DNA of 64,000 nucleotides from assembly GCA_035048485.1 (NCBI GenBank), contig CM068587.1, forward strand, positions 36,946,816-37,010,815. Reading direction: 5' to 3'. This DNA comes from Pteria penguin. Taxonomy: Eukaryota; Mollusca; Bivalvia; Pterioida; Pteriidae. The notes beneath the pieces are model-generated. The model worked only from the letters and a program-made list of their open reading frames with translations. It searched no databases and was not told the origin of the DNA. Below are positions 24,560 to 57,947 of the stretch, piece after piece. Numbering within the stretch: the stretch's first letter is position 1; each line of letters opens with the position of its first letter. Both the position numbers and the translations under genes were made by a program.

Positions 24560-27500
24560 TTATTGCTTTGAGCAACAGCACATACATCTCATTGCTTTCC
24601 GGACTCTCCGAAGCATTCTTCTCATCTGTTAAGAATAATTTGATAAAATTATCTATGATCTTGAAAATGTATAATTCTGTGTTGAAAATTATCTCAAATT
24701 CAAGATCAACATAATAAGATATACATTGATAAAATGATTGTGATAATTTATTATCTAAGACTACACAAAAATTAATAATAGCTAACTTTATTCATTAACT
24801 TTATATTCATTTAATTACCTTTGTCTCCTTTTTCTCCTTTGTGTATATATCCTGTGAACAGAAGAACTCCTAAAAAACATGAAAATTTTGCATGTAGAGT
24901 TAAATATATACAAAATGTATTCATTGCACAAGATGACTTGCATGTTGAATAGAAAATAAATATGCTGTCTAAATATTAAAATAACAATTTAATATGTATA
25001 TCATATAAAAGAATCAAAATCAAGTGATTTCAATTTCTTCATAATTAGAAATGCAAATTTTTGCACAACAAATATTGACAAAGTGTAGGAGAGAATTATG
25101 TACCTACCATGTCTGTATCGTTTACAACGAGCTTTTTCAAGGAAGTGGTGTCATTTGATGAGGTGGTATCAAAAGTTGAAACGATATCAGTTCCAAAGTT
25201 GGGAGTTGCTGAGGCATCTGTATTCATCGTTTCATCAAACAGCTGACTCTACAAGATCAGGTTTTAGAACTTTTACTATTTTTCTTTAAATATTTAGATC
25301 TAATTTACTATAAAAACAGTAGTATTTTCTACAAAATTTCTTTATATATACATGTATAGACCTTTTCACGACAACTGTGGTCTTACAATTTGTGTATGCA
25401 CATTAGCCCTTCCGGGAGGTTAGCTAAAAGCCTGAAAGAAAAGTAATCTCTTTCTATTGCTGAGCAACGTTCAGTAGGTTCAAATTTTGTAGCTAACCTT
25501 CCGGAAGGGCTATTGCGCATATATACATGGTAAGACCGCAGTTATCGTGAAAAGGCCTATTATATACTACTAATTTATATCTCATAAATATTTTTTAATA
25601 AAAGAACCTACCACCTCTTTCCTATAGCCTTCCAAATGTGAGAGTTCAGAAGAAACTCCGGGCAGTATGATGGGTGATTCCCGAAAAAACAACTGAAGAA
25701 GAGACGTAGATTCCAAATCTTGACTTTCCCATGGAACTGGAGTTTCTTCTATCTCACTGCCTGACTTTGGTTGCTCATCTTCTTGGTCAATGCATCTACG
25801 TAAATTATTGTTGCCACCAGTTTTAGCCTTATCTTCATTCTGGTGTTCCATGTGTTTCAATGAATATAAGCTATTCTTGATTATCTCATCGACTAATCGT
25901 TTTGCTATGTCTCTCAAATCTATTTCATTTGTTTCGCTGGAACATATTATATCCTCAGATTTTCGTACCTCATTTTCATATGAATCCTGAATATCGTCTG
26001 TCTTTGCTCTCTTCTGGTTTTCTTGATCTTCAGCTGGTGACTTTGGACTTTGTGCCTCTTGTTTGGTACATTTTAGTAATGCCAAGCTAGTTTTTATTTC
26101 GTCGTCTACTAATCTTCTAGCTGTATTTTGTAGTCCTTTTTCAGATGTTTTGCTTTTAGATTCATCATGCTTTGGTTCTATTAATGTACATTCTCCTGAC
26201 TCTGGGATGTCACTGACCCTCTTTATCTCTTTGTTGTCTCGTTCTGATGAATAGTTACCTCCTCTGGCTTCTGCTAAAGGAGCTGCATGCTGTAGATATT
26301 CAGTTTCCTCTTGTTTGTTACACTTAAGTGAAGCCAAACTATTTTGAATTATATCATCAATGTACCCTTTCACCATATTCCTCAGTTCCAGCTCATTTGT
26401 ATTCGATTGATCATTTTTACACTCAACTTGTAGTTCAATATATTCTCTTCGACCTCTGATGCTGCTGCTGCCATTTTCTTCTTCAGTGCGTTTTGGTTCA
26501 TGTGTTCTGTTCTCTGAAATTTGGGTAGCAGGCTTCATTTGCATGGTTTCTGATTCATTTAAAGTTAGTTGTTCTGATGAATGGCTACATCCTCTGGCTT
26601 CTGATAAAGGATCTGCAAGCTGTAGATTATCAGTTTCCTTATTTTTGTTGCATTTAAGTAAACTCACACTTTTACGAATTATATCATCAATGTACCCTTT
26701 CACCATATTCTTCAGTCCCAGCTCATTTGTATTTGATTGATCTTTTTCATGTTCAACTTGTAGTTCAATATATTCTCTTTGACATGGGATGCTGCTGCCG
26801 TTCTCTTCTTCAGTGCATTTTGGTTCATGTGTTCTGTGCTCTAAAATTTGGGTAGCAGGCTTCATTTGCATGGTTTCTGATTCATTTATAGTTAGTTGTT
26901 CTGATGAATGGCTACATCCTCTGGCTTCTGATAAAGGAACTGCAAGCTGTAGATATTCAGTTTCCTCTTGTTTGTTACACTTAAGTGAAACCAAACTGTT
27001 ATGAATTATATCATCAATGTACCCTTTCACCATATTCATCAGTCCCAGCTCATTTGTATTCGATTGATAATTTTCATGATCAACTTGTTCAATATATTCT
27101 CTTTGACCTGGGATGCTGCTGCTGTTCTCTTCTTCAGTGCTTTTTGGTTCATGTGTTCTGTGCTCTAAAATTTGGGTAGCAGGCTTCATTTGCACGGTTT
27201 CTGATTCATTTAAGTTGAGTAAAACCAAGCTATTGTGTATTATTTTTTCCACGTAGTTTCGTGCCTTGGCTTTTATTTCCTGATTATTCTCATAATCAGC
27301 ATGCTCGACTTCTTGTCTCTGATTGTCTAAGGAATTTTGGATATTGCAGATCTTGCCTTTTTCTTGGTGTTGGCATTCAGGAGACAATAGATGTAATCTG
27401 TCTTGTGCACAAAGACCTGCCATTTGTTGATCTTGCTTTCCTTGTCCATTACAATGCAGTAAGATAATGCTGTGATTTATTACATCTTCCACATACTTCC

Positions 27501-27789
27501 TTGCCTTCTCATTCAGTTCTACCTCCCTTTGGTTTGTATCATCTTTATCTTCTCTGTTCGTGCTTGACTCAGTTACAGACTCTTTTCTACTGTTTCTTTC
27601 TTCATGTTTGACCTTCTTGAGGTTGCAGCCCACTTCATATCCGACCTCCTCTTGGAGGTCACCCTCTTCACTTCTGACATTTTCTGAGTGGCTGCCCTCT
27701 TCATATCTGACCTGTCTTACTTCTTCTTGATTATCACTTTCTGCTTCTCCTTTATCATTATTTCCTTGGCGTATCATAAGCTGCTGTTG
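24560..27789 (-). pseudogene. 5'-truncated paralogue of the AKAP-helix-like repetitive protein gene
   Basis: Minus-strand exons are 25612-27789 (2178 nt), 25108-25248 (141), 24819-24869 (51) and 24560-24625 (66, stop TAA at 24562-24560). They are phase 0 throughout, with intact acceptors and donors matching exons 8-11 of the complete gene at 52308-58958. The large exon encodes seven candidate helices: ARKYVEDVINHSIILL, ARNYVEKIIHNSLVLL, three MVKGYIDDII units in 109-residue repeats, ARRLVDDEIKTSLALL and AKRLVDEIIKNSLYSL. The C-terminus keeps the basic, cysteine-rich tail (VRKAMRCMCCCSKQ). Homology stops about 105 bp upstream of the large exon, so the seven 5' exons with the start codon are missing. 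The frame is nevertheless free of stops over 2.4 kb, which suggests recent duplication or use of another 5' end. Called a pseudogene for lack of a start; it could be transcribed. Confidence 0.7.
25357..25559. mobile_element. palindromic MITE in the intron of the truncated paralogue
   Basis: Ends 'tagaccttttcacgacaactg' and 'cagttatcgtgaaaaggccta' are inverted copies, as are 'gcccttccgggaggttagcta' and 'tagctaaccttccggaagggc'. An eroded copy lies at 53022-53193 in copy B, so it predates the duplication. Confidence 0.85.
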
Positions 27790-27894
27790 CTGAAATTTCA
27801 AGAAAAAGATTACTTCACCAGAATAACAAAAAAATTGACAGGAATCTCTAAATTATTTATTTACTTATTGTATTATGTATATTAGATTTTAATT

Positions 27895-28449
27895 CAGGAA
27901 AACTGCATCATATTTGTTGGGGATAAGTCTCGGGATTTATCATCGCTGTCTTCGAAGAATCCGATATTTTGAATCTTATTTTTGCAAAGTGCGGTCATAT
28001 GAAATTCGAAGAATGAAAGAGAATCATCATATAGTTCATCAAAGTTGCATTACGGTCTATGATAAACACCGAGTTTACCCCCCAGGTTTTCCTCGGAATG
28101 TTTCGGGGATTATCTTCATTTAGATCTTAGTTTGATGTCACGCCGACTTCGAGAATAAAGAAGAAAATTGGTAGCGTGCTAGACCAAAGACATATATATG
28201 TCTCTGGCTAGACTATCCAGTGTTTTACCACTAGATCAGGACCCCTTCGGTTTAAATATACCACCTCGGACGCTAAATAATGATCAGGGTATTGTCATAT
28301 TTAATCATAATGAATTAACAGGGTATTCAGTTTCAGGAAAACGGGAGTTATTCCCAGGACAGCATCAAGCACCCTAAACCCTATATATGATTTTCTTGTA
28401 TCAAAATCCATATCTATTACATTTTCCCGGCTGAAAATATAATCAGAAA
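27895..28449. other. start of the insert between duplication copies, no gene
   Basis: Unique sequence right after the duplication boundary. The only structure I see is the short palindromic insertion at 28178-28213, listed separately. Confidence 0.5.
28178..28213. mobile_element. ultra-short palindromic insertion 1 (22 bp) with 7-bp direct repeats
   Basis: GCTAGAC (28178-28184), then the 22-bp near-palindrome caaagac-atatatat-gtctctg (28185-28206), then GCTAGAC (28207-28213). Confidence 0.75.
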
Positions 28450-28746
28450 CTTATACATGATTAATTGATTGATTGATTTTTGTTTAACGTCACACCATAA
28501 ATATTTCACGTATATGGTGACGGCATCTGCCTGATGCAAGGCATACAAATTTTGACATTTGCAACAAACCCACCCGAAGCAGTGAGGGATCTTTAACGTG
28601 CCATGCATACTACGACATGGGGCCTCGGTTTTACTGTCTCATCCGAAAGACAGGACACAGACATGACCGGGACTCGAACCCCGGCCTCCCGACCACCAGA
28701 AGGCGAGCGCGATACCACTAGGCCACGCCGGCTTCGGCCTTATACA
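28450..28746 (-). mobile_element. tRNA-headed SINE with 8-bp target duplication
   Basis: Minus orientation: the head 'aagccggcgtggcctagtgg' is near 28735, with a B box and 'gtgccatgcat', 'cacgtatatggtgacggc' and an (aatc)n tail near 28461. CTTATACA flanks it at 28450-28457 and 28739-28746. Confidence 0.85.
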
Positions 28747-28836
28747 ATATCTAATATAAGGCCCTGATCAAACTGAACAGAAGAACTAAATATCTAGGAA
28801 ACACCACGTACGCGATAGACCATCAGGTATTACTGC

Positions 28837-28966
28837 CATGTTCCATTTTTTAAAATTTACTTGGAGGTGGTAAATACAAAAATTAAAGCATGACAACTAG
28901 TTGTCATGTTTTAAGTTTGGTATTTACCATCCTCCACCCCCAAGTAAATTAAAAATTTAGAACATG
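28837..28966. mobile_element. foldback MITE, about 130 bp
   Basis: The arms run from catgttc / gaacatg inward through 'aatttacttggaggtggtaaatac' and its inverse, meeting at the perfect palindrome catgacaactagttgtcatg. Almost the whole element is stem. Confidence 0.85.
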
Positions 28967-29035
28967 CATATTACCACGGTCGGGTATTACCACGGTCTGT
29001 TACACGACTGAAATAACGATTGACACTGTCGATGC

Positions 29036-29088
29036 ATGACACCAGAGACATAGACTACTTTCAAAGTAGTCTATATCTCAGATGACAC
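29036..29088. mobile_element. ultra-short palindromic insertion 2 (39 bp) with 7-bp direct repeats
   Basis: ATGACAC (29036-29042), insert 29043-29081 (cagagacatagactacttt / aaagtagtctatatctcag), ATGACAC (29082-29088). Confidence 0.8.
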
Positions 29089-29153
29089 ATCAAACACAAC
29101 AACCTTTAAATTTCTAGGAAACACAACGCGCTTGATAGACCATCGCGTATTAC

Positions 29154-29197
29154 CAGAAAGACAGACTAATTTCAAAGTAAAGTAGTCTATGTCTCTG
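29154..29197. repeat. related palindrome without clear flanking repeats
   Basis: Starts cagaaagacagact and ends agtctatgtctctg, matching insertion 2 in its right half. No direct repeat is seen (gtattac versus tcaccat), so it is old or rearranged. Confidence 0.5.
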
Positions 29198-29452
29198 TCA
29201 CCATTCGATTGGGTAGTTACTTAATAGTTATCTGCCCTTTATCGATAGGTATCCCGATCGTATCCGCCATTACGGTACTGAAAAAAGTTATCGAGATAGA
29301 AAAAAAAAAAAGACCTATGAGCGTAGTGGTTAAAACAATAGTTGCGTTTATTATTGTTTAATTAAATGATCTGATCGGTGACTGTGATTGAAAATTAATA
29401 AACGTGTTTGTTTTTATTTTCTATCATGAATTTCAGTTTTAAATTAAGATAT

Positions 29453-29486
29453 GAAAAACCAGACATACATATGTCTGTGGAAAAAC
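29453..29486. mobile_element. ultra-short palindromic insertion 3 (20 bp) with 7-bp direct repeats
   Basis: GAAAAAC (29453-29459), insert cagacatacatatgtctgtg (29460-29479), GAAAAAC (29480-29486). Confidence 0.75.
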
Positions 29487-29569
29487 AGAAAAGAAACTTT
29501 CCTAACTTGGTCACCCAAGCTAAGTAATGAATTATGTATTTATGTATTACAGATTTTAAAATTAGATAA

Positions 29570-29624
29570 GAAGTATCAGAGACATAGACTACTATCAAAA
29601 CCTAGTCTATGTTTCGGCAAATAT
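29570..29624. mobile_element. ultra-short palindromic insertion 4 (41 bp), eroded
   Basis: The insert 29577-29617 starts cagagacatagactac and ends ctagtctatgtttcgg. Flanks gaagtat and caaatat agree at 5 of 7 positions, consistent with a decayed target duplication. Confidence 0.5.
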
Positions 29625-30600
29625 CAATATCAATAATATCTTCTTGTTATCCATGATTCTCGATTCGACTCTAAGTCGAAATGGTGTATATCTTTGCAAA
29701 TTAATTAAATACATTAAATATTCAACAAAATATTTCATATATATATATATTATATATAGGTATAAGACTTAGAATGACCATGACAGAAACCAGCATACCA
29801 TTTCACAAACGAGGATTTTTCGTAACTTTTACTCAGATGGAATATGACTTTAAATTTCAGTATGCAGATGAATTGTTGTTTTCGGGGATGAGAAACTTAA
29901 TTATTTCCAAATTGAGACTACCCTATTATGCAGAACCTGGAGTTGAAAGTTTCAGAAAATCCTTTTAAAATTTCGTATATGATCTCTAAGGTAATAAAAC
30001 TGTAGTATTAGGCCTGTGAAAATTGAATACAACTCTACTTCGTAACCGAAATCAACTTGTCAAAAATAGCTTAATTAAACAATGGCGGATTTAGGAGGAG
30101 CGGAGGGGTCCTCCCCCCCCCCCCCCCCGACGGTGGCCCGAATTCTACCAAAACCCTGTAATTAACTTAGTCCATTTTCGGCTAAAATTGACAAAATTCG
30201 TCCCTTGATCCCTCGGCAAAGGGAGTGATGGATCCGCCACTGGATAAAGAACGATCAATTCACTATGCTTTACTTCCCTCGTGTATGCAATGTTAATTGA
30301 TTTGCTCCAATCAACATACACGTGTATCAATTATAGTCTTACGGATGATGGGGTTAAACAGCTGACATAAATCATGTAAGTTTATTGCGTAATACGGACG
30401 ACAGTTTCTGGAAAGTCGCTTTCACTTTTGCCAAGGATACCTGGACTGAGATATTATTGACCACAGGTGACAACTTGGTTTTACACCTATTACACAATCC
30501 ATTTTCTGTCAGTACAAGCTTAAAGGAAAGTGTTTTAATACATCTGAATCTCTTCTACATATCATCATTCTGTTTCTAAAACCCAACAATGAACACCGTA
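29625..30600. other. spacer with a MITE-like element, no gene
   Basis: Contains a (TA)n run near 29738-29757. A MITE-like element spans about 30081-30243, with ends 'aatggcggattta' and 'tggatccgccact' inverted and an internal poly-C tract at 30109-30128. The ORFs are short and without domains. Confidence 0.55.
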
Positions 30601-31107
30601 ACTTTGAATCTATCACCTGATAAGCTTCAAGCGTAACAGACATTTTTGCACACAATGACTGGGATTGGACAAATATTCCGCCAGTACTTTGACAGAGGAC
30701 CTTGTGGACACTGAGTCGCCTGGCAATGAAGCCTCTCAGTCCAAAATTTGAAGGGGAACACGAATGCCCAGACTGCTTTTCATGACCCTGTATGATAGAT
30801 GATCGCAACCGACAGATGTGGTGACCAGAATCAGACGTCCCTCCTCACCATCGTAATCCGGCATAGAAAGAGAGAGGACCTATACAAGAAGTGCTGGACA
30901 ATGCTATGCCATCATGTTGTGTGGGATGATTCTCGGTATTTAGATAGAAAGACTCGGAAAGTCAGTCTGAACAGAAGGCGAAACAGATTTGTATGGCAGT
31001 CCCATGGATATTGGGAGGAAATTATGCCCAATTGTGTATTTCGTGAAATACGGGAGAAATATCGGCTTATGTCCTCAAACTCCTTCAAAATAAAACTCTC
31101 CAAATAG
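30600..31107 (+). pseudogene. decayed fragment resembling transposon-associated P2X7-like domain genes
   Basis: Across two frames the plus strand gives MKPLSPKFEGEHECPDCFS, MIDDRNRQMW, PESDVPPHHRNPA, EDLYKKCWTMLCHHVVWDDS with RYLDRK, and EIMPNCVFREIREKY. The mix of paired cysteines, WDD and a late IMPNCV...IR segment recalls the uncharacterised cysteine-rich domain often annotated 'P2X purinoceptor 7-like' in bivalves and cnidarians. Stops and shifts make it a remnant. I am not sure of the family. Confidence 0.35.
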
Positions 31108-31369
31108 AGATCAAAACAAACAAATACATCAAACACCCCACCCCCTAAAAAGTAATAAAACCAATTAAAATGAAGAAATAAAATACAACTAGAATCGTCA
31201 TTACTGCACTAAAGTATGTACTTTCTATTACCAATTCAAATCCCAAACATTGTTTTACACCTCCCGATTACCATGCGCTTCCAGGCATATCCAATACCCC
31301 GATTACCAAGCGCCTCTAGGCAAATACCCCGAGCTGGAGACAAGCAGTGATTTCGGCGACCAGTTAATA

Positions 31370-32612
31370 CGGAATACGGAAAAGCTATAAATATTTGGGG
31401 GTTATACTTGACGAATATCTGGATTTTACTACAACATCTAATGCGTTGTCAGATTCTGCTAGTCGTGCATTTAGCGGAGTGGTTGGGAACTTACTACATC
31501 AAACCGATGTTACGTTTTCAACCTTTACAAAATTATTTGAAAGTAAAATTGTGCCTATAATGGACTACTGCAGTTCGATATGGGGAGCAAAGTTGTATTC
31601 TAAAGCTGACACATTACAAAACAGAATTTTAAAATATTTTCTTGGAGTTTATAAATACACATCAAATGCCGTCGTGCACGGAGATACTGGATGGTTACCT
31701 AGCGTTGTAAGGAGAAAGTTAAATATGTTGCGATTATGGTACCGGCTATGCCAACTTGATGATAGTAGATTGGTGAAACGTGTGTTCATCTGTGATTACT
31801 ATAATTGTAAAATTAATTGGAGTGCAGATATTCGACGAATTTTTGCAGAATGTAATCTTCAATATTGTTACGATAATCTTACCACCGTTGGAAATAATGT
31901 AAACACCTTTCTTGACATAGCAAAAAATGCATTGATGTCAACCGTTGTTGAGAAATGGAGAATCGAAAAAGGAAGTCAATCTAAACTTCATCACTACGAT
32001 CCGGTCAAAATAAATTATTGTGCAGAAAATTACGTCACACTGAATTTCTCTAAATCTACTAGATCTACTATTTGTCAGTTGAGGTCGGGAACACTACCGC
32101 TAGCTATAGAGCAAGGACGACATCATGGGATACCACATGATCAACGTATATGTAAAGAGTGTACCCTGAATGCAGTCGAGTCGGAAGTACACTTTTTATT
32201 TCATTGTTCAAAATATATAACAATTCGATCTATATTATACCAATCGGCAATCACTTTAGTAACTGATTTTCCTTCACTGTCCGATAAAGAAAAACTGCTA
32301 TTGTTGTGTTCACATAAAAAGTTAATTTCTCCATTGGCAAAATATATTAAAACAGCACTTGTAATTAAATCACAATATTAACTTAATATTAAAGGGTGGT
32401 CAGGGACACTTTTATATAGACCACCTTTCATCTTTCACCTTTACGTTCATTATTGATTATTCGTGACTGATAAGCCAATTGGCTGGGTTATCTATACATT
32501 GCATTCTATGTAGTATATATTTCATATGTTAAACTTACTTGTTTTGATATTATACAATGTATATACTTCCTGTCACGTTAATAAACAGTATTATTATTTA
32601 TTATTATTATAA
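31370..32612 (+). pseudogene. 5'-truncated non-LTR retrotransposon (LINE), reverse transcriptase C-terminal part
   Basis: The open frame starts in KYLGVILDEYLDF, the usual thumb-region motif, and continues through FESKIVPIMDYCSSIWGAK, LGVYKYTSNAVVHGDTGWLP and the C-terminal cysteine/histidine block CKECTLNAVESEVHFLFHCSKY to a stop at 32379-32381. The palm and endonuclease are absent, as expected for a copy that truncated during target-primed reverse transcription. The frame is intact for about 328 codons, so it is fairly young. The 3' UTR carries a ggtggtc...gaccacc hairpin (32393-32427) and ends in a (TTA)n tail at about 32590-32612. Confidence 0.8.
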
Positions 32613-32682
32613 ACCACGCCCCCAGCTTAATCACGTGACTTCAACCGTACGGTCAAAAAGTTTCCCCTTTAAACTCTATATC

Positions 32683-32783
32683 ATGGGAATAATCAGAGAC
32701 TTATGTCTCTGGAATAATTTAATTTTAGTAGATCAGTACTAAACAGTCAATTATTCCGGGGACATGCGTCCCTGATTATTCAT
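32683..32783. mobile_element. inverted-repeat element whose arms each hold a palindrome with 7-bp direct repeats
   Basis: Left arm: GAATAAT (32687-32693), cagagacttatgtctctg (32694-32711), GAATAAT (32712-32718). Right arm: ATTATTC (32750-32756), cggggacatgcgtccctg (32757-32774), ATTATTC (32775-32781). The arms are inverted copies of each other, so these two palindromes are probably one event duplicated within a hairpin element. Confidence 0.8.
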
Positions 32784-33363
32784 AAAAAAAAACTCGCATT
32801 ATTAGCAGTATGATTGGATATATCTCCGTTTGCGTTAGGTTTTGTAAAGTAATGTTATCAAGGCAAATGGCAAATAGTCTGTATTTTAGTCATAATTACA
32901 GTCAAGACCGCAAAAATGCATAACAACTTATTAAAGATATAAATGATGAAAAAAGAGATACCAGTAGATAGTGTAATCTGATGCAAGGACTTATAAACAT
33001 GTGTAAAAGTCCTTGGCTGATGATATGAGACTAGGCTGATGATAGCTACCGTAATAGTCACGTGATCAGAAGATGGCCGCGTACGTGTATTACGCGTAGG
33101 AATGGTCTATATCTAAAGTAAACTTTAAAAGTACGAATTCAAGAGATAGGCGGTCACTAAAAGTGATAGTCCGAGTCCGAGTCCGAGTTGAAGAAAAGCC
33201 GAGTTGAGAATTAAATCGCCCACAACTTCCTTAATTTGGCATGTATTGACACCATATTTGAAATAATACATTCAAATATGTGTAAAAAATATATTGACCT
33301 TGTCAAAGTTTGAAAATTTTTAGCATTCTTAAAATTATGGTCGATGTTCCTATTTTCAGGTCA

Positions 33364-33411
33364 CTAAAAGCAGGGACGTATATATCTAGATATATACGTC
33401 CCTGCTAAAAG
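33364..33411. mobile_element. ultra-short palindromic insertion 5 (34 bp) inside a foldback subrepeat
   Basis: CTAAAAG (33364-33370), a perfect 34-bp palindrome starting cagggacgtatatatctaga (33371-33404), CTAAAAG (33405-33411). Sister units read ggtcactaaaactggtag without interruption. Confidence 0.9.
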
Positions 33412-34184
33412 TGGTAGTTGGGAGCCGAGTCGAGAGCCGAGTTGAGATTTTAATTGCCGATCATCTCCTTCATTATAAATGGATTCACATAAAATTAGGA
33501 ATAATATATTCTGATAAACATTGCAATGTACTGATATTATCAAAATTTGAACATTTTGAACATTGTTACGATAATTTATGATTTTCTGATTATCTAGTCA
33601 CTAAAACTGGTAGTCCGAGTCCGAGCTGAGAGCCGAGTTGAAATTTTAACCGCCCATTGTTTCCTTAATTTTATTTGTATTGACGCCAAATTTGGAATGA
33701 TATATCCTGATATATAGTTACATGTAAGAACATTATCAATGTTTGAACTTTTTGAACAATGTTATAATGATCGAACATTTTTCCGAATTTCAGGTCACTA
33801 AAACTGGTAGTCCGAGTCCGAGCTGAGAGCCGAGTTGAAATTTTAATCGCCCACTATTTCCTTAATTTTATTTGCATTGACGTCAAATTTGGAATGATAT
33901 AATCTGATATATAGTTACATGTGAGGACATTATCAAAGTTTGAAAATTTTGAACAATATTATAATAATCGAGCATTTCTCCGAATTTCAGGTCACTAAAA
34001 CTGGTAGTCCGAGCTGAGAGCCGAGTTGAAATTTTAATCGCCCACTATTTCCTGAAAATCTAGATTTAACGGCCCAAAATTCTTCTCCAGTTTTTAAAGG
34101 CAGGAAAATCGACTCAATTTGTCCCGCGGTAAATCTTAGCAGATTGATGATATGCAAAAGAGTTTTCATGTATTTTCTTTCAGG

Positions 34185-34983
34185 GAAGATATTCCAGATA
34201 CTCCTCTTGATCATCAGGGTAGCCAGGAATAGGTTGAATTTAATCACGAATCTTTAAAAGTCGATCACAAGGATACCATCAATGACAATGGTAAACTATG
34301 TGGCGACATTATGAACTATGTCTGTAAAATAGTAAACAATCAATTTAAAATCAGTGGTCTGCAATATACTGGTAGAGTGCCTTTTTTTAAATGACAAAGG
34401 AAAATGGGAGTATGTTTTACAGTTTGATAGTATAGAAACTTCTCCATTAGCTCAAATTCATCATACTGGGAAGAATCACTGGGTTTTATCAATTATGCAC
34501 AATGAAGATGTTTTAGATAGTTTAAGGGGAACTGTAAATGTTCTCACTGCTTCCATGGAGATACAGCTGTCAAAATTATACAAAAAATCAAGAATTGTTA
34601 TTCCATATGTCCAACAACAACAAAATTCTGTTGATTGTGGAGTTTTCGCTCTTGCTTATTTGGTTGTATATTGTGAATATGGTATTGACGGACTATTTGA
34701 TAAAATATTTGATGTCACAGAAATGCCAAACCATTTAATAAGTTGTATTGAAAATAGTTCTTTTTCAGGATTCCCGAGAGTCAACGAAGGTCAACGAGCT
34801 AAAAGACGGCGGCCAACTGTATACGAAATAGAAATGGACTGTGGCGCGTGCATACTGCCGAACATATTTGACAACATGGTGCAGTGTAGCAAGTACCACT
34901 GTAATAGATGGTTTCATGTGTCATGCAGCAGCGTAGAGAACACTATCACTGACAGTTTCGAGTTTAATTGTGATTTTTGTTGA
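34185..34983 (+). pseudogene. ULP1-family (C48) cysteine protease with C-terminal PHD finger, carried by the foldback element
   Basis: The long frame 34354-34983 has the SUMO-protease-like core: GKNHWVLSIM (catalytic His), a following DSL Asp, and QQQQNSVDCGVFALAYL (Gln and catalytic Cys). It is followed by a C4HC3 PHD-like zinc module, DCGACILPN, MVQCSKYHCNRWFHVSC and FNCDFC. An upstream exon probably begins at about 34185 after ttttctttcag (CGDIMNYVCKIVNNQFKISG), but a stop near 34230 and a frame change near 34390 separate it from the long frame. ULP1-type proteases are known passengers of several DNA transposon groups (Mutator-like and KDZ, for example). Here it is the only gene between the arms. 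Catalytic residues look intact. Confidence 0.7.
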
Positions 34984-36097
34984 CTTTTATTCATATGTGA
35001 TTTTGTTGATTTTTATTCATTCATGTATTTCCTGTATGCAAAATGTTGTGTACCTGTGACGACTAAATTAAACGATGTGCGTAATTATATGGTTGTTTAA
35101 TTACCTATGATGTGATTATGTATGTACATGCGCATTTGCTGCTAATTCAATAAATGTTGCCTTGTATGTATTAATTTATATGAATGAATAAATAAAATCA
35201 TTATTCCAGTTAACGTATATGTAATAATATGGTTGTTATAAGCAACATTATAACCATGTATAGCTGTATTTCATGTTGCTTCTAAAATTAATAAAAGTTG
35301 ATGTGACAAGTCTATGTTTTATTCCTGAGATAATAAGGAAGATTTCCCAACTTCCGACTTGGCTTAGTTGATGCATTAAAAGAAAATTATGTGATATGTG
35401 CAGTTGAAAGCTGATTTGAAAGCTGGACGATTAAAATCACAACTCAGCGCTCAGCTCGGACTCGGACTACCAGTTTTAGTGACCTGAAAATCGTAAAATT
35501 CTCCATTGCTATTAGAATGTTCGAAAATTTGAACTTTTGATAATGTCACCACATTTTACTGTATATCAGAACATGTTATTTCAAATCTGGTGTCAATCAA
35601 TGTAAAATTAAGGAAAATGTGGGCGATTAAAATCTAAACTCGGCTCTCAGCTCTGCTACCAACTACCACCTCTAATGACATCCCCCATAATTATTACAAT
35701 GATCGATTTTTTTAAATCTAACAATATCAATATATTTAACTGTATATCAGAATATATCATTCCAATTTTGGCGTCAATCCATATTAAATTAAGGAAACAG
35801 TGAGCAATTAAAATCTCAACTCGACTCTTGACTCGGCTCCCAACTACCACTTTTAGTGACCTGAAAATAGGAAAATCGACCATAATCATAAGAATGCTAA
35901 AAATTTTCAAACTTTGATAATGTCAATATATTTCTACATATATTTGAATATATTATTTCAAATATGGTGTCAATCCATGCCAAATTAAGGAAGTTGTGGG
36001 CGATTTAATTCTTAACTCGGCTTTTCTTCAACTCGGACTACCACTTGTAGTGACCGCCCAAGTTGTTTGCGACAATAATTCAGATTCATACAGGTCG

Positions 36098-36143
36098 GTT
36101 TCAACCAGAGACATACATACACATGTATGTCTCTGGTTTCAAC
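36098..36143. mobile_element. ultra-short palindromic insertion 6 (30 bp) with 8-bp direct repeats
   Basis: GTTTCAAC (36098-36105), insert cagagac...gtctctg (36106-36135), GTTTCAAC (36136-36143). It lies 40 bp outside the foldback element. Confidence 0.8.
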
Positions 36144-40128: not shown

Positions 40129-41094
40129 ATGACCTCATTGGACAAGATATTAGACTTAGAGAGCTTGCAAAAAAAGTTACCTGAAATATTTCTTCATTCT
40201 AGAGCGAATAATACTGTTAAAAATATAGTTATGGTTTTCAAATTTTTTTGAAATGGTGTGAATCCTTCAATCCTCCTTTATCTGCTTTGCCGGCGTCTGA
40301 ATTACACGTATCACTATATTTAACTCATTTATTTGAGTGTGCTTCTTCTTCTTTTATTGATGAAGCAATTCACTCGATTACATGGATTCACAATGTAGCT
40401 GGTTTAGACCATCCTTGTACTTCTAAGTTTGTAATGCATGTTAAAGAAGGTAGTAAACGACTTTCCAGTCGTCCTGTTAGTAAACAGTTACCCATTTCTC
40501 CAGATATTCTAAAATCCCTGCTAAAATTTTATGAAGATCGTATACCAAATTTACAAGATCTTAGAACAATTGCTATGTGTCTATTGGGATATGCGGGGTT
40601 TTTACGCTCTTCTGAACTCATCAATTTTAAACGTTCTAATGTTGTGTTTTTAGAATCTCATGCTACCTTGTATATTGAGAATAGCAAGACTGACGTTTAT
40701 AATGCTGGAAATACTCTTAATATAAGTAGAACATTTTTACCTACCTGTCCAGTTGCTGCATTAGAAAAATATCCGGCGTTATCTGACATTGATTCTTATT
40801 CTGATGAATACATATCTTTCTCAGAAAGACAACTCTTACAAGTTACGCGTTTCAAATCGTTCGTTGTCATATACTAAAGCTAGAGAAATACTTTTATCTG
40901 CTCTGAAATTTATAGGAGTTGATAGCAAAAACTATGGTCTACATAAACTGCGTTCTGGCGGTGCTACTGCAGCTGCTGCTGGCTTGAACGATAGGGTATT
41001 CAAAAACATGGCCGATGGAAATCCGAAAATGCCAAGGATGGGTATGTGCAAGAAGATTTGTGTCAAAAATTGTCAGTGTCAAAAAATCTAGGTA
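40129..41094 (+). pseudogene. tyrosine recombinase (Crypton/DIRS-like integrase) remnant with frameshifts
   Basis: An ATG at 40129 opens MTSLDKILDLESLQKKLPEI, then the frame shifts near 40230. Next come the SAM-like N-terminal domain (SELHVSLYLTHLFE) and the catalytic core: LLGYAGFLRSSELINFKR (Arg box) and IENSKTDVYNAG (Lys). After a second break near 40815 comes GLHKLRSGGATAAAAGL (His-x-x-Arg box). The last block, HGRWKSENAKDGYV, is in another frame because of a shift in an A-run near 41008, and it lacks the usual following Tyr context in the open frame. At least three frame breaks make it non-functional as assembled. Such proteins occur as Crypton or DIRS-type elements in invertebrates; I cannot choose between them. 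Confidence 0.8.
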
Positions 41095-52307: not shown

Positions 52308-55300
52308 TTATTGCTTTGAGCAACAGCACAAACATCTTAATGCTTTCCGGACTCTCCGAAGCATTCTTCTCATCTGTTAAAAATAATGTGATATAATTAC
52401 CATCTCAAGTTCAAAATCAACATACTAAATATACATTAATAAAATGATTGTGAAATTTTATTATCTAGGCCTACACAAAATTTAATAATCATAGCTAATG
52501 TTTTTCATTAACTTTGTATTCATCTAATTACCTTTGTCTCATTTTTCTCCTTTGTGTATATATCCTGTGAGCAGAACTCCTGAAAAACATGAATATGTTC
52601 CATTTAGAATTAAATATACGCAAAACTTATTCATTGCACAAGATAATTTCATGATGAAAAGAAAACAAATATGCTGTCTAAATATTGATATAACAATTTT
52701 ATATGTATATAAATGCAAATTTTTGCACAACAAACATTGACAAGGTGTAGGAGAGAATTATGTACATACCATTTCTGCATCGTTTACAGCGAGCATTTTC
52801 AAGGAGGTGGTGTCATTAGATGAGGTGGTATCAAAAGTTGAAACAATATCAGTTCCAGTGTTGGGAATTGCTGAGGCATCTATATTTATCATTTCATCAA
52901 ACTGCTGACTCTACAAGATCGGGTGTTTAGAACTTTTACTGTTATTTTCTTTAAATATTTAAGTCTAATTTACTGAAAAAACAGTAGTATTTTCTACAAA
53001 ATACCTTTATATATGCATGTATATACCTTTTCATGATAACTGCGTTCTTACAATTTGTTAGCTACAAACCTGAAAGAAAAGTGTTCTCCTGGAATTACTG
53101 AGCAATGTTCAGTACATACAAATTTTGTAGCTAACCTCCCGAAAGGGCCATTGCGCATATACAAATTGTAAGACCGCAGTGAAAAGGCCTATTATATACT
53201 ACTAATCTATATCTCATGAATATCTTCTAGTTAAAGAACCTACCATCTCTTTCCTATGGCCTTCCAAAGGTGAGAGTTCAGAAGAAAGTCCAGGCAGTAT
53301 AATGGGTGATTCCCGGAAAAACAACTGAAGAAGAGACTTGGATTCTAAATCTATACTTTCCCATGGAACTGGAGTTTCTTTTATCTCACTGCCTGACTTT
53401 GGTTGTTCTTCTTCATCAGTGCATCTCAGTAAAGCCTTGTTGCCACCAGGTTTAGCCTTCTCTTTATTCTGGTCTTCCATGTTTTTCAATGAATACAAGC
53501 TATTCTTGATTATCTCATCCACTAATCTTTTTGCTATGTCTCTCAAATCTATTTCATTTGTTTCGCTGGAACATATAATATCCTCCGATTTTCGTTCGTC
53601 ATTATCATACCAATCCTGAATATCGCCTGTCTTTGCTCTCTCCTGGTTCTCTTGATCTTCAGCTGGCGACTTTGGACATTGTTCCTCTTGTTTCTTACAT
53701 TTTAGTAAAGCCAAGCTACTTTTTATTACATCATCTATCAATCTTCTAGCTGTGTTTTGTAGTTCTTTTTCGGATGTTTTGCTTTTAGATTCATCATGCT
53801 CTGGTTCTATTGATATACAATTTCCAGAGTCTGGGATATCACTGACCCTCTTTTTCTCTTTGTTGTCTCGTTCTGGTGAATGGTTACATCCTCTGGCTTC
53901 CGCTGAAGGATGTGCAAACTGTAGATATTCAGTTTCGTCTTGTTTGTTGCATTTAAGTGAACTCACACTTTTACGAATTATATCATCAATGTACCCTTTC
54001 ACCATATTCCTCAGTCCCAGCTCATTTGTATTCGATTCATCATTTTCACGCTCAACCTGTAGTTCAATATATTCTCTTTGACCTGGGATGCTGCTGCTGT
54101 TCTCTTCTTCAGTGCTTTTTGGTTCATCTGTCCTGTCCTCTGAAATTAGGGTAGAAGGCTTCATTTGCACGGTTTCTGATTCATTTAAGTCAGGTTGTTC
54201 TGATGAATGGCTACATCCTCTGCCTTCTGATAAAGGAACTGCAAGCTGTAGATATTCAGTTTCCTCTTTTTTGTTGCATTTAAGTGAACTCACACTTTTA
54301 CGAATTATATCATCAATGTACCCTTTCACCATATTCCTCAGTCCCAGCTCATTTTTATTCGATTCATCATTTTCACACTCAACTTGTAGTTCAACATATT
54401 CCCTTTGACCTGGGATGCTGCTGCTGTTCTCTTCTTCAGTGCGTTTTGGTTCATGTGTTCTGTTTTCTGAAATTTGGGTAGCAGGCTTCATTTGCATGGT
54501 TTCTGATTCATTTAAATTAAGTCGTTCTGGTGAATGGCCACATCCTCTGGCATCTGATAAAGGAACTGCAAGCTGTAGATATTCAGTTTCTTTTTGTTTG
54601 TTACACTTAAGCGAACTCACACTTTTACGAATTATATCATCAATGTACCCTTTCACCATATTCCTCAGTCCCAGCTCATTTGTATTCGATTGATCATTTT
54701 TACACTCAACCTGTAGTTCAATATATTCTCTTTGACCTGGGCTGCTGCTGCTGTTGTCTTCTTCAGTGGTTTTTGGTTCATCTGTCCTGTCCTCTGAAAT
54801 TTGGGTAGAAGGCTTCATTTGCACGGTTTCTGATTCATTTAAATTAAGTCGTTCTGGTGGATGGCTACATCCTCTGGCATCTGATAAAGGATCTGCAAGC
54901 TGTAGATATTCAATTTCCTCTTGTTTGTTACACTTAAGCGAACTCACACTTTTACAAATTATATCATCAATGTACCCTTTCACCATATTCCTCAGTCCCA
55001 GCTCATTTGTATTTGATTGATCATTTTCATGCTCAACTTGTAGTTGAATATATTCTCTTTGACCTGGGATATTGCTGCTATTCTCTTCTTCAGTGCTTTT
55101 TGGTCCATGTGTTCTGTTTTCTGAAATTTGGATAGCAGACTTCATTTGCATGGTTTCTGATTTATTGATGTTGAGTAAAACCAAGCTATTGTGTATTATT
55201 TCTTCCACGTAGTTTCGTGCCTTGGCTTTTATTTCCTGATTACTCTCATAATCAGCATGCTCGACTTCTTGTCTCTGATTGTCTAAGGAATTTTGGATAT

Positions 55301-57947
55301 TGCAGATCTTGCCTTTTTCTTGATGTTTGCATTCAGGAGACAATATATGTAATTTGTCTTGTGCTCTAAGACCTGCCATTTGTTGATCTTCCTTTCCTTG
55401 TCCATTACGTTGCAGTAAAATAATGCTGTGATTTATTATATCTTCCACACACTTCCTTGCCTTCTCATTCAGTTCTACATCCCTTTGGTTTGTATCATCT
55501 TTATCTTCTCTGTTCGTGCTTGACTCAGTTACAGACTCTTTTCTACTGTTTATTTCTTCATGTTTGACCTCCTTGAGGTTGCAGCCCACCTCATATCCAA
55601 CCTCCTCTTGGAGGTCACCCTCTTCACTTCTGACATTTTCTGAGTGGCTGCTCTCTTCACATCGGACCTGTCTTACTTCCTCTTGATTGTCACTTTCTGC
55701 TTCACCTTTATCATTATTTCCTTGGCCTATAATAAGCTGCTGCTGCTGCTGCAATTTCAAGAAAAACATTACTTCACCAGAATGACAAAAATTGACAGGA
55801 ATCTCTAAATTATTTATTTACTTGTTGTATTATGTTTATTAGATTTTAATATATTTTATCATGATTTCAAAACCTGAATTAATGCATAGATGCATACCTT
55901 TTTCTTCCATCTCTCAAACTAGAAATAGAAGGAAAAATATTAGTAATAAAGAAAAATTGAATAATCTAAATAGTAGAAAGACACAATGAATGTAAACTTA
56001 GGATAACTGACACAATGAATTTTTCTTTTTAGATTATACCAAAGTAAATCACTGTCATGATTTATGCAACTTTTGAATTATTTATACATTTGTAACACTG
56101 CTTCCCCCACCCCCAAGAAAAGAAGAAAAGAAAGAAAACAGAGGCAAACGGAAATAGAATTCAACACTTTAACAAAATATCAAAATTAAACTTAGTAAGT
56201 AGTATACATACCTTTTTCTTACGCTTTTGCTGTAAATAAGGGAAAAAATACATCATAATAAATCTGACAAATAACAAATTTAGCTTTATCATTAACTTAA
56301 GAACAAATTAGAGTTCTATTCAGGAATCTCAACACATAAAATCATTAAAATATTGAAATTACATATACATAACACAATATTTTGTGCAGGTTGCAGTTTA
56401 AAAGTGAATTTAATTAACAATCACTGTTGATCATAATTTCTATTTTATCAGAAATGATTATCATATATGATCACGATTATTATCACATTTTGGTGTTTAA
56501 CATATCATAAACGAAAAAGTACTATTGTTTTGAGTTCAGTTTATATTAAGTTGAGTGCCCTAAGGATAACCCATACAGCCTAATGGCTTATTTCCAATGA
56601 GGTACTTTTAGAAAAAATAATTATGTGCATTGTGCTATATATAACAATGAGAAAATATCTAATCTACACTTTAAAGTATCTTTACTTATCAATTTCTTTG
56701 AACTTTTATTAATTACCAATTCTCCATAAGTGTATTTATAAATATATTCATATACACTACCCTCCATAAATAAGTACACACTCTAATATTTTTCAAATTT
56801 TTGAAATAAATTTGACAAAACTGAAAGAAATAGAAACAATTCAGGTATTTTGCTGTTTATGTTCAATGAAAGAACATGTTTTATGATGAAAAAAGTGAAG
56901 TTCAAAAAACATTTTTTTCAAAATCATATACAAATGCAATACTAATCAATTATACACATTTCAGTCTAATATTTTGTGTACCTTCCTCTTGCCCTTATCA
57001 CAGCTTGAATACGTTTAGGCATGCTTTTAACAAGTGTTCTGCATCTCCTGGTAGACAAATTGTCCCAACATTCTATCGGTTAAAATCTAACAACCTAAAA
57101 TACTGACTGATTATTTGTTGTCTGTGTAGAAAATTCCTGGGGTGGGTACTTACTTATGGAGTGTATAAGTTTTGAACTTCATTAAATAAATTATTAGTAA
57201 GCAACACTAAGCAATTAAGGTCCTTATTGATTGACATACCTCTCGCATCTCATGTTCAACCTGAAAATGAAGAAATACATGTATAAGAACTAGTAGGTAT
57301 CGGGGTAACTGATGAGCACATTTATTCATTCTATTAGTCCCTATTTCCAGGAGCATTTCAAAATGAAAACTATCAAGCCAATAACACAATTGTTTGAATG
57401 TGCAATGCATTGATATACTGCAGAAAACATAATTATTATTATTATTTTTAAACTTTGTACAGAAATTTGCACTTGGAATATAGTCTTCAAATAAAAACAA
57501 AAATGCAACTTACAGGTGGCAAGTCGGACACAAGTAGTCGGCCTTTAGTGTGTCCATCTTCTCCCTTGTACTCGTACCGATGTACAACCTATTATATATT
57601 AAATAGATAAATTATAGTAAGAAACGCTACATCACATGCCATGTCACTGTTCATAAAGTAAATCTTTAGGATAATCCCTTAAGTTATGTTTTATCAAAAT
57701 ATATAGTTAGAATCTTTATGTGACATGTACTGTAAACGTTTATAAATAAGGAAATGAAAAGCTGCATTAATATTGAAAGATAAAATGCATTTTAGTTTTT
57801 AAGGGAGGGGGTCGGCTTGATATACTTACATAGTATGAAGGGAATCCGGGTTCTATTTTCTTCTACAATTTAAAATATTATATTTAGTAACATTATAACC
57901 TAAATATGTGTTTATATGATAGAAAAGCGATATTTATTTATTTGTCT

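Follow-up and report, generated by a model that had tools for sequence, protein, structure and literature searches.

Short palindromic insertions between 7-bp direct repeats in the genome of Pteria penguin: candidate excision scars of P-like transposons

We examined a 64-kb stretch of the Pteria penguin genome (the window hereafter; G000:C8:36946816-37010815, in a genome of 838 Mb and 49 contigs) in which a series of very short palindromes, with ends close to CAGRGAC and GTCYCTG, lies between direct repeats of 7 or 8 bp. The initial annotation had pointed to five main sites of this kind, to two further palindromes in the arms of a hairpin at 32683-32783 and to two eroded relatives. Direct reading bore out all five main sites with their duplications (28178, 29036, 29453, 33364 and 36098), gave each hairpin palindrome a 7-bp repeat of its own and confirmed both relatives, neither of which has an exact flanking repeat. 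The sites are listed below; a strand is assigned only where one is given.

28178-28213: 22-bp palindrome at 28185-28206, made of two terminal inverted repeats (TIRs), between GCTAGAC repeats.
29036-29088: 39-bp palindrome at 29043-29081 with arm CAGAGACATAGACTACTTT on either side of a central C, flanked by ATGACAC repeats.
29154-29197: eroded relative of the 39-bp type, without an exact flanking repeat, common to all eight aligned copies of a host repeat.
29221-29227: TTAATAG, empty in the window; 13 of 28 host-repeat copies carry a 24-38-bp palindrome with a 7-bp duplication there.
29453-29486: 20-bp palindrome at 29460-29479, between GAAAAAC repeats.
29577-29617: eroded relative of the 39-bp type; its flanks, AAGTAT and AAATAT, are similar, not exact.
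32687-32718: 18-bp palindrome at 32694-32711, between GAATAAT repeats, in the left arm of the 32683-32783 hairpin.
32750-32781: 18-bp imperfect palindrome at 32757-32774, between ATTATTC repeats, in that hairpin's right arm.
33364-33411: 34-bp perfect palindrome of the CAGGGAC type at 33371-33404, between CTAAAAG repeats, in the left arm of a foldback element.
35850-35856, minus strand: a single CTAAAAG in the right arm of the foldback element, the uninserted equivalent of the 33364 site.
36098-36143: 30-bp palindrome at 36106-36135; the flanking repeats, GTTTCAAC, are 8 bp long, or 7 bp if one of the matches is fortuitous.

The window was scanned for pairs of exact 7-bp repeats that enclose 14-150 bp and whose inserts have ends mirroring each other with no more than one mismatch in seven. 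This strict scan gave 10 matches, against a mean of 2.4 and a maximum of 7 in 40 block shuffles; three of the inserts were at least 70% palindromic (shuffles: mean 0.175, maximum 1). It misses three of the five main sites, of which 29036 is found with 6-base ends, and 29453 and 36098 were read directly. The motif CAGRGAC occurs 24 times in the window against 7.8 expected, a count that none of 100 shuffles attained. Genome-wide, the pattern CAGRGAC-N4-34-GTCYCTG, which is its own mirror and gives equal counts on both strands, has 5591 matches, compared with 531 for the reversed-pattern control; the structures noted initially are real and extend far beyond the window. The confinement of the cluster to the 28-36 kb insert holds within this window and is ruled out for the genome by the same count, and no such palindrome was found in four arbitrary 10-kb stretches. 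The shuffles, the reversed control and the flanking duplications together rule out chance or an AT-rich artefact.

Two samples of genomic sites were read. The first took in every match listed for the genome-wide pattern, 50 in 49 loci, and lies entirely within the first 12 Mb of contig C1. Its members are not fully independent, since L029 and L031 seem to be copies of a single site and L028 contains two related matches. The second consisted of 47 loci selected for an intact 17-nt arm, 40 of them fetched by choice among places starting CAGAGACATATATACAC; L062, L067 and L068 repeat first-sample sites. In the first sample, 23 sites had an exact 7-bp duplication and two an exact 8-bp duplication, whereas about 0.0001 exact 7-mer matches per site are expected by chance; a further 13 had a 7-bp duplication with one mismatch and three with two mismatches, and nine had none. 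In the second sample, a matching 7-mer (at most one mismatch) lay within 110 bp in 40 of 47 loci, or in 32 of 47 when eight doubtful loci, with simple repeats or widely spaced matches, are left out (L069, L081, L102, L106, L111, L112, L113 and L117). The reading of these sites as insertions with a 7-bp target duplication is correct, and the empty sites described below are further evidence for it. Since the two copies of the duplication mismatch at 7% (39 matches with at most two mismatches), many of the insertions do not appear to be very recent.

The target itself is palindromic. At 43 independent sites with exact duplications, both strands counted, T stands at position -3 in 64%, A or G at position 1 in 76% and T at position 2 in 72%, together with the mirror image; RTANTAY fits five of the 43 targets, against 0.27% of 7-mers in the loci sampled. 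A duplication of 7 or 8 bp at a palindromic target is a feature of the P superfamily. The 8-bp duplication of the hAT type was not the rule here (7 bp in 23 of the 25 exact cases, 8 bp in two). The length alone may be insufficient ground for excluding hAT, since a Repbase paper gives an example query for hAT families annotated '7-bp TSD' (TSD, target-site duplication).

These targets bear directly on an origin without any transposase, either by the hairpin-templated de novo formation suggested in the initial annotation or by slippage. The AT-rich self-complementary arms, the length differences at one site and two sites with inverted flanks would suit such an origin. These last, L021 and L014 (locus centre), are CAG palindromes without a duplication, enclosed by inverted flanks of about 40 bp and 14 bp, respectively; such a structure might result if the end of a break were copied back upon its own strand. 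Neither process, however, yields 7-bp duplications at a preferred palindromic target or accounts for thousands of sites that share their ends, and the empty sites with duplication disfavor such an origin as well. Hairpin templating is also unneeded, as mirrored arms follow if they represent the two ends of a transposon, and we regard an origin of this kind as very improbable.

The sites between 28178 and 29617 sit in a dispersed repeat of which one search scored 40 copies at 89% identity or more (the window copy included, one copy broken). The search for it covered the 28.1-29.6 kb part, over which 28 of the 40 copies were compared; in the first eight copies the resemblance spans about 27.9-31 kb, except that one copy differs at about 27.9 kb and one stops at about 30.7 kb. 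At the 28178 site all 28 copies carry the palindrome, with cores of 22-32 bp, 21 by a strict test and seven with an altered first base or flank. At TTAATAG, by contrast, 13 of the 28 copies are filled and 15 have a single TTAATAG. The filled copies group together in a tree (FastTree, 1226 columns, midpoint-rooted, with four palindrome regions masked); four have cores of 36-38 bp and nine, nested within the group, cores of 24-26 bp. The longer cores look basal and the shorter ones derived, and we take the group to go back to a single insertion that was later shortened where it lay, although the different lengths might also be separate repair outcomes of one parent. A second empty site was found in the foldback element, where the other arm is closely similar to that bearing the 33364 palindrome and has a single CTAAAAG and no insert. 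The expectation of empty sites was thus borne out at two places. What is seen at them is insertion, with which the earlier presence of a longer element is compatible. As for the proposed collapse of a larger foldback element, shrinkage is apparent at the one site, TTAATAG; collapse of a foldback was not seen.

In two host-repeat copies, L006 and L133, the 29453 site consists of two adjacent end remnants with three GAAAAAC copies between and around them, and looks as it might after two insertions into one target. Elsewhere in the host repeat, of which the window holds a part at 27900-31100, most of the eight compared copies are closest to one another at 30300-30600. The sequence of about 130 bp at 28837-28966 aligns with its own reverse complement in many of the copies, and is for this reason taken to be a hairpin-like element; 28480-28740 resembles, by eye, a tRNA-derived short interspersed element in reverse orientation (GACCGGGACTCGAACCCCGG). 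The foldback element, 33153-36054, has repeated units in its inverted arms, each unit starting GGTCACTAAAA.

The history at TTAATAG can be accommodated by a transposition of the palindromes themselves. They would then be ultra-short miniature inverted-repeat transposable elements (MITEs) of 36-39 bp, consisting of two abutting TIRs, moved as units by a P- or hAT-like transposase in trans and subject to later slippage. A single insertion accounts for the group of 13 copies, with its apparently basal 36-38-bp cores, and the empty sites are clean. Constant ends, a 7-bp TSD, thousands of copies and several sequence families are likewise what MITEs would display.

The anatomy of the cores bears on this alternative in both directions. 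Full palindromes of about 36-39 bp consist of two arms of 17-19 nt, and the families differ in arm sequence. The commonest family has the arm CAGAGACATATATACACA and a full palindrome of 36 bp; its shortened forms keep one arm complete and have partly lost the other. Other arms (CAGAGACATATATACTTT, CAGAGACATAGACTACTTT and CAGGGACGTATATATCTA) are each mirrored, and their complete palindromes measure about 36-39 bp. Members of a family have about 17-19 nt in common (the reference arms used for comparison were hand-set at 18-21 nt), so that a transposase needing some 7 terminal bases, as first suggested, is not supported. Nor are the cores always palindromic, as had first been stated: in many copies one arm is complete and the other shortened, so that the two sides do not match. 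One-armed remnants between exact duplications are found at L079 (20 nt) and as one of the two adjacent remnants in L006, and cores at L067, L090 and L101 combine two arm types at their two ends. Both the mixed-arm cores and the one-armed form with exact duplication at L079 are awkward for a unit that moves intact. Identical cores recur at independent sites, as expected of MITEs, while the centre varies like a repair junction between fixed ends; drift of an unneeded centre could do likewise. Continuous correction of one arm by the other as the source of the mirrored arms finds no support at the 39-bp site; changes there are few and lie in one arm or the centre.

Junctions were fitted at 57 TSD-flanked sites from both samples, using three tails that were hand-set after the data had been seen; the fit for this reason describes the junctions without testing them, and the selection of the samples gives full arms too large a share in it. 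Forty-four of the 57 sites begin CAGAGAC or a one-base variant, and their junctions can be written as 27 overlap joins, three blunt joins, five joins with 1-3 nt of filler and nine with more than 3 nt. The remaining 13 rows, of the CAGGG type, fall in the class with more than 3 nt of filler solely because no tail fits them. The variety expected of end joining (microhomology, blunt and filler joins and one-armed forms) is thus present, part of it probably due to later slippage.

We lean, by a modest margin of confidence, towards the interpretation that the insertions are excision scars of P-superfamily-like cut-and-paste transposons with a 7-bp target duplication. What is observed directly is insertion at 7-bp targets, ends that stay constant around a changing centre, sites lacking the insert, one-armed remnants and cores of different length at the same site. 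The putative parent transposon would insert and duplicate 7 bp of target. At its departure, the transposase would cut one strand at each end, some 18 nt into the element, and each donor flank would retain the duplication together with 18-19 nt of the transposon end in single-stranded form. The two identical tails would then be fused head to head by end joining, through a short self-complementary overlap (AT or TATATA, for instance), bluntly or with a few filler bases, and the product would read TSD, end, junction, mirrored end, TSD, mostly over 18-46 bp. Different arm families (CAGAGACATATATACACA, CAGAGACATATATACTTT, CAGAGACATAGACTACTTT, CAGGGACGTATATATCTA) would come from different parents, and AT slippage or deletion between two TATATA tracts may later have shortened some scars. 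The palindromic design would follow from the inverted repeats at the ends of any one transposon, and the variable middle from its being the repair junction. Both duplications are indeed kept with remnants between them, as in a P excision scar, if the remnants are, as we infer, transposon terminal repeats.

Excision scars are preferred to mobile 36-bp units mainly because the sites share the plan of the P excision junctions of flies, and secondly because so short a duplex would be hard to synapse at both ends. A 36-bp duplex is presumably too stiff for its two ends to be joined to targets 7 bp apart, and a P-like stagger of 17-18 nt would split such a unit into two single strands; moreover, an autonomous partner with the same TIRs was not seen among the one-sided ends that were followed, in a partial search. 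We consider MITEs a tentative, less probable explanation. A variant in which the transposase inserts two detached ends of about 18 nt at one target, and the host joins the inner ends, would explain the 7-bp TSD, the arm length, the variable centre and a one-step insertion without a parent on site. It demands an extra step, loss of the transposon body before integration, and nothing here points to such loss. We know of no precedent for it and think it improbable. That the 36-39-bp double ends are mobile in either form, as intact palindromes or as detached end pairs, by means of a 7-bp-duplicating transposase, is a possibility of substance, if clearly a minority one. Under the scar and MITE readings alike, cores can differ and nevertheless be palindromic, in so far as they are: their arms derive from both ends of a single type of transposon, and their centre is a junction or a slippage-prone AT tract.

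Several observations weigh against excision scars, the first being the outcome of the search for a parent. Places starting CAGAGACATATATACAC and failing three palindrome positions numbered 1002 (476 forward and 526 reverse; reversed control 0), a filter that hides any parent agreeing with the palindrome at one of the three positions. Among about 100 of these, the clearly one-sided ones run, by eye, into mutually different sequence. Eleven one-sided ends were followed outward (L064 over 1.5 kb, L070-L079 over up to 4 kb; at L077 another copy in the same stretch was measured, not the intended end). For eight of the 11, no end-like mate with a matching duplication was found within 1.5-4 kb; at L072 and L076 the same 7-mer recurs once, 1.1 and 1.5 kb off, without end-like sequence. 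Two of the 11 are one-armed remnants with a duplication (L071, with one mismatch, and L079, exact). The loci sampled (156,929 bases, mostly 0.3-4.5 kb each) contain no pair of ends with an exact TSD more than 46 bp apart. The full-length autonomous element with the same ends and a 7-bp duplication that had been envisaged was thus not found in this partial search of 11 followed ends and short sampled loci, so that a parent with an end of the CAGAGACATATATACAC type would be rare, hidden by the filter or gone. Second, all 13 filled TTAATAG copies hold 38 bp or less; scars need an insertion and an excision where direct insertion is one event. Some of the core variation, moreover, probably arises in place after insertion. 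Cores of 40-46 bp are also present, and the same 26-bp core, with an identical centre, occurs at the independent sites L027, L048 and L049, a result that copying would give likewise. Clearly one-sided copies, selected for the 17-nt arm, leave it (by eye) just past nucleotide 17-18. This exit point, like the 36-39 bp of full palindromes, would suit a fixed stagger such as the 17 nt of P, but by itself the boundary does not mark a cut because it is also the centre of the 36-bp palindrome. Finally, CAGRG ends and T at target position 2 also suit hAT elements, whose target is NTNNNNAN.

Other features of the window include two related long open reading frames (ORFs) for a repetitive charged protein on the minus strand (25582-27852 and 53214-55817), an ORF at 40221-40877 related to phage-integrase (tyrosine recombinase) proteins, with PF00589 in four of the six relatives found, and an ORF at 31368-32381 that resembles, by eye, the C-terminal part of a non-long-terminal-repeat retrotransposon protein. 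A further ORF, 34336-34983, enclosed by the foldback element, matches a Ulp1-type C48 peptidase and, weakly, a PHD-like domain in Pfam. It was the only one of seven window ORFs with Pfam matches; the 25582-27852 and 31368-32381 ORFs had none.

Among the open-access papers listed for excision scars, short palindromic insertions or MITEs and 7-bp TSDs, judged mostly by title and opening of the abstract, there was no report of such sites. If the insertions are scars, this genome preserves by the thousand the natural excision junctions left by a long-stagger transposase. Cut position, target choice and repair outcomes could be read from such a fossil record, which would document end joining and a transposon that may have vanished. 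If instead the insertions move, transposons can be smaller than has been assumed, and these would be the smallest transposable units known in eukaryotes. Either way, repeat annotation would probably miss them because they are so short.

The insertions resemble P and hAT MITEs in their terminal inverted repeats, target duplication and high copy number, and differ in measuring about 18-46 bp in all with nothing between the ends, a size below that of any MITE known to us. With Galileo, a P-superfamily element of Drosophila whose duplication consensus is GTATTAC or GTAGTAC (PMC4168063, PMC2775673), they share a 7-bp duplication, with a few of 8 bp, and a palindromic target of the GTANTAC kind. Galileo copies, unlike those described here, are long and have long terminal repeats, and when target motifs are compared the third flanking base is, as we read the Galileo motif, A there and T here. 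The closest parallel is with the P element itself. P transposase cuts 17 nt inside the element end (PMC7776569), and the 17-nt tails stay on the donor DNA. In spn-A flies (PMC2895639, Table 1), P excision junctions consist of the 8-bp TSD, up to 17 nt of each end joined by microhomology, bluntly or with filler, and the second TSD; an (AT) join produced a near-perfect palindrome in 14 isolates, one-armed joins are present, and 20 isolates lost most or all of both ends through long microhomology, a class that would escape the pattern CAGRGAC-N4-34-GTCYCTG. The sites in Pteria penguin differ from these junctions of a single donor in laboratory mutants, with an 8-bp duplication and CATGATG... ends, in having a 7-bp duplication, CAGRGAC ends, thousands of genomic copies, a putative parent and, if they are scars, tails of 18-19 nt. 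They are like them in the duplication on both sides, the partial ends placed head to head, the microhomology or filler between these and the occurrence of one-armed forms.

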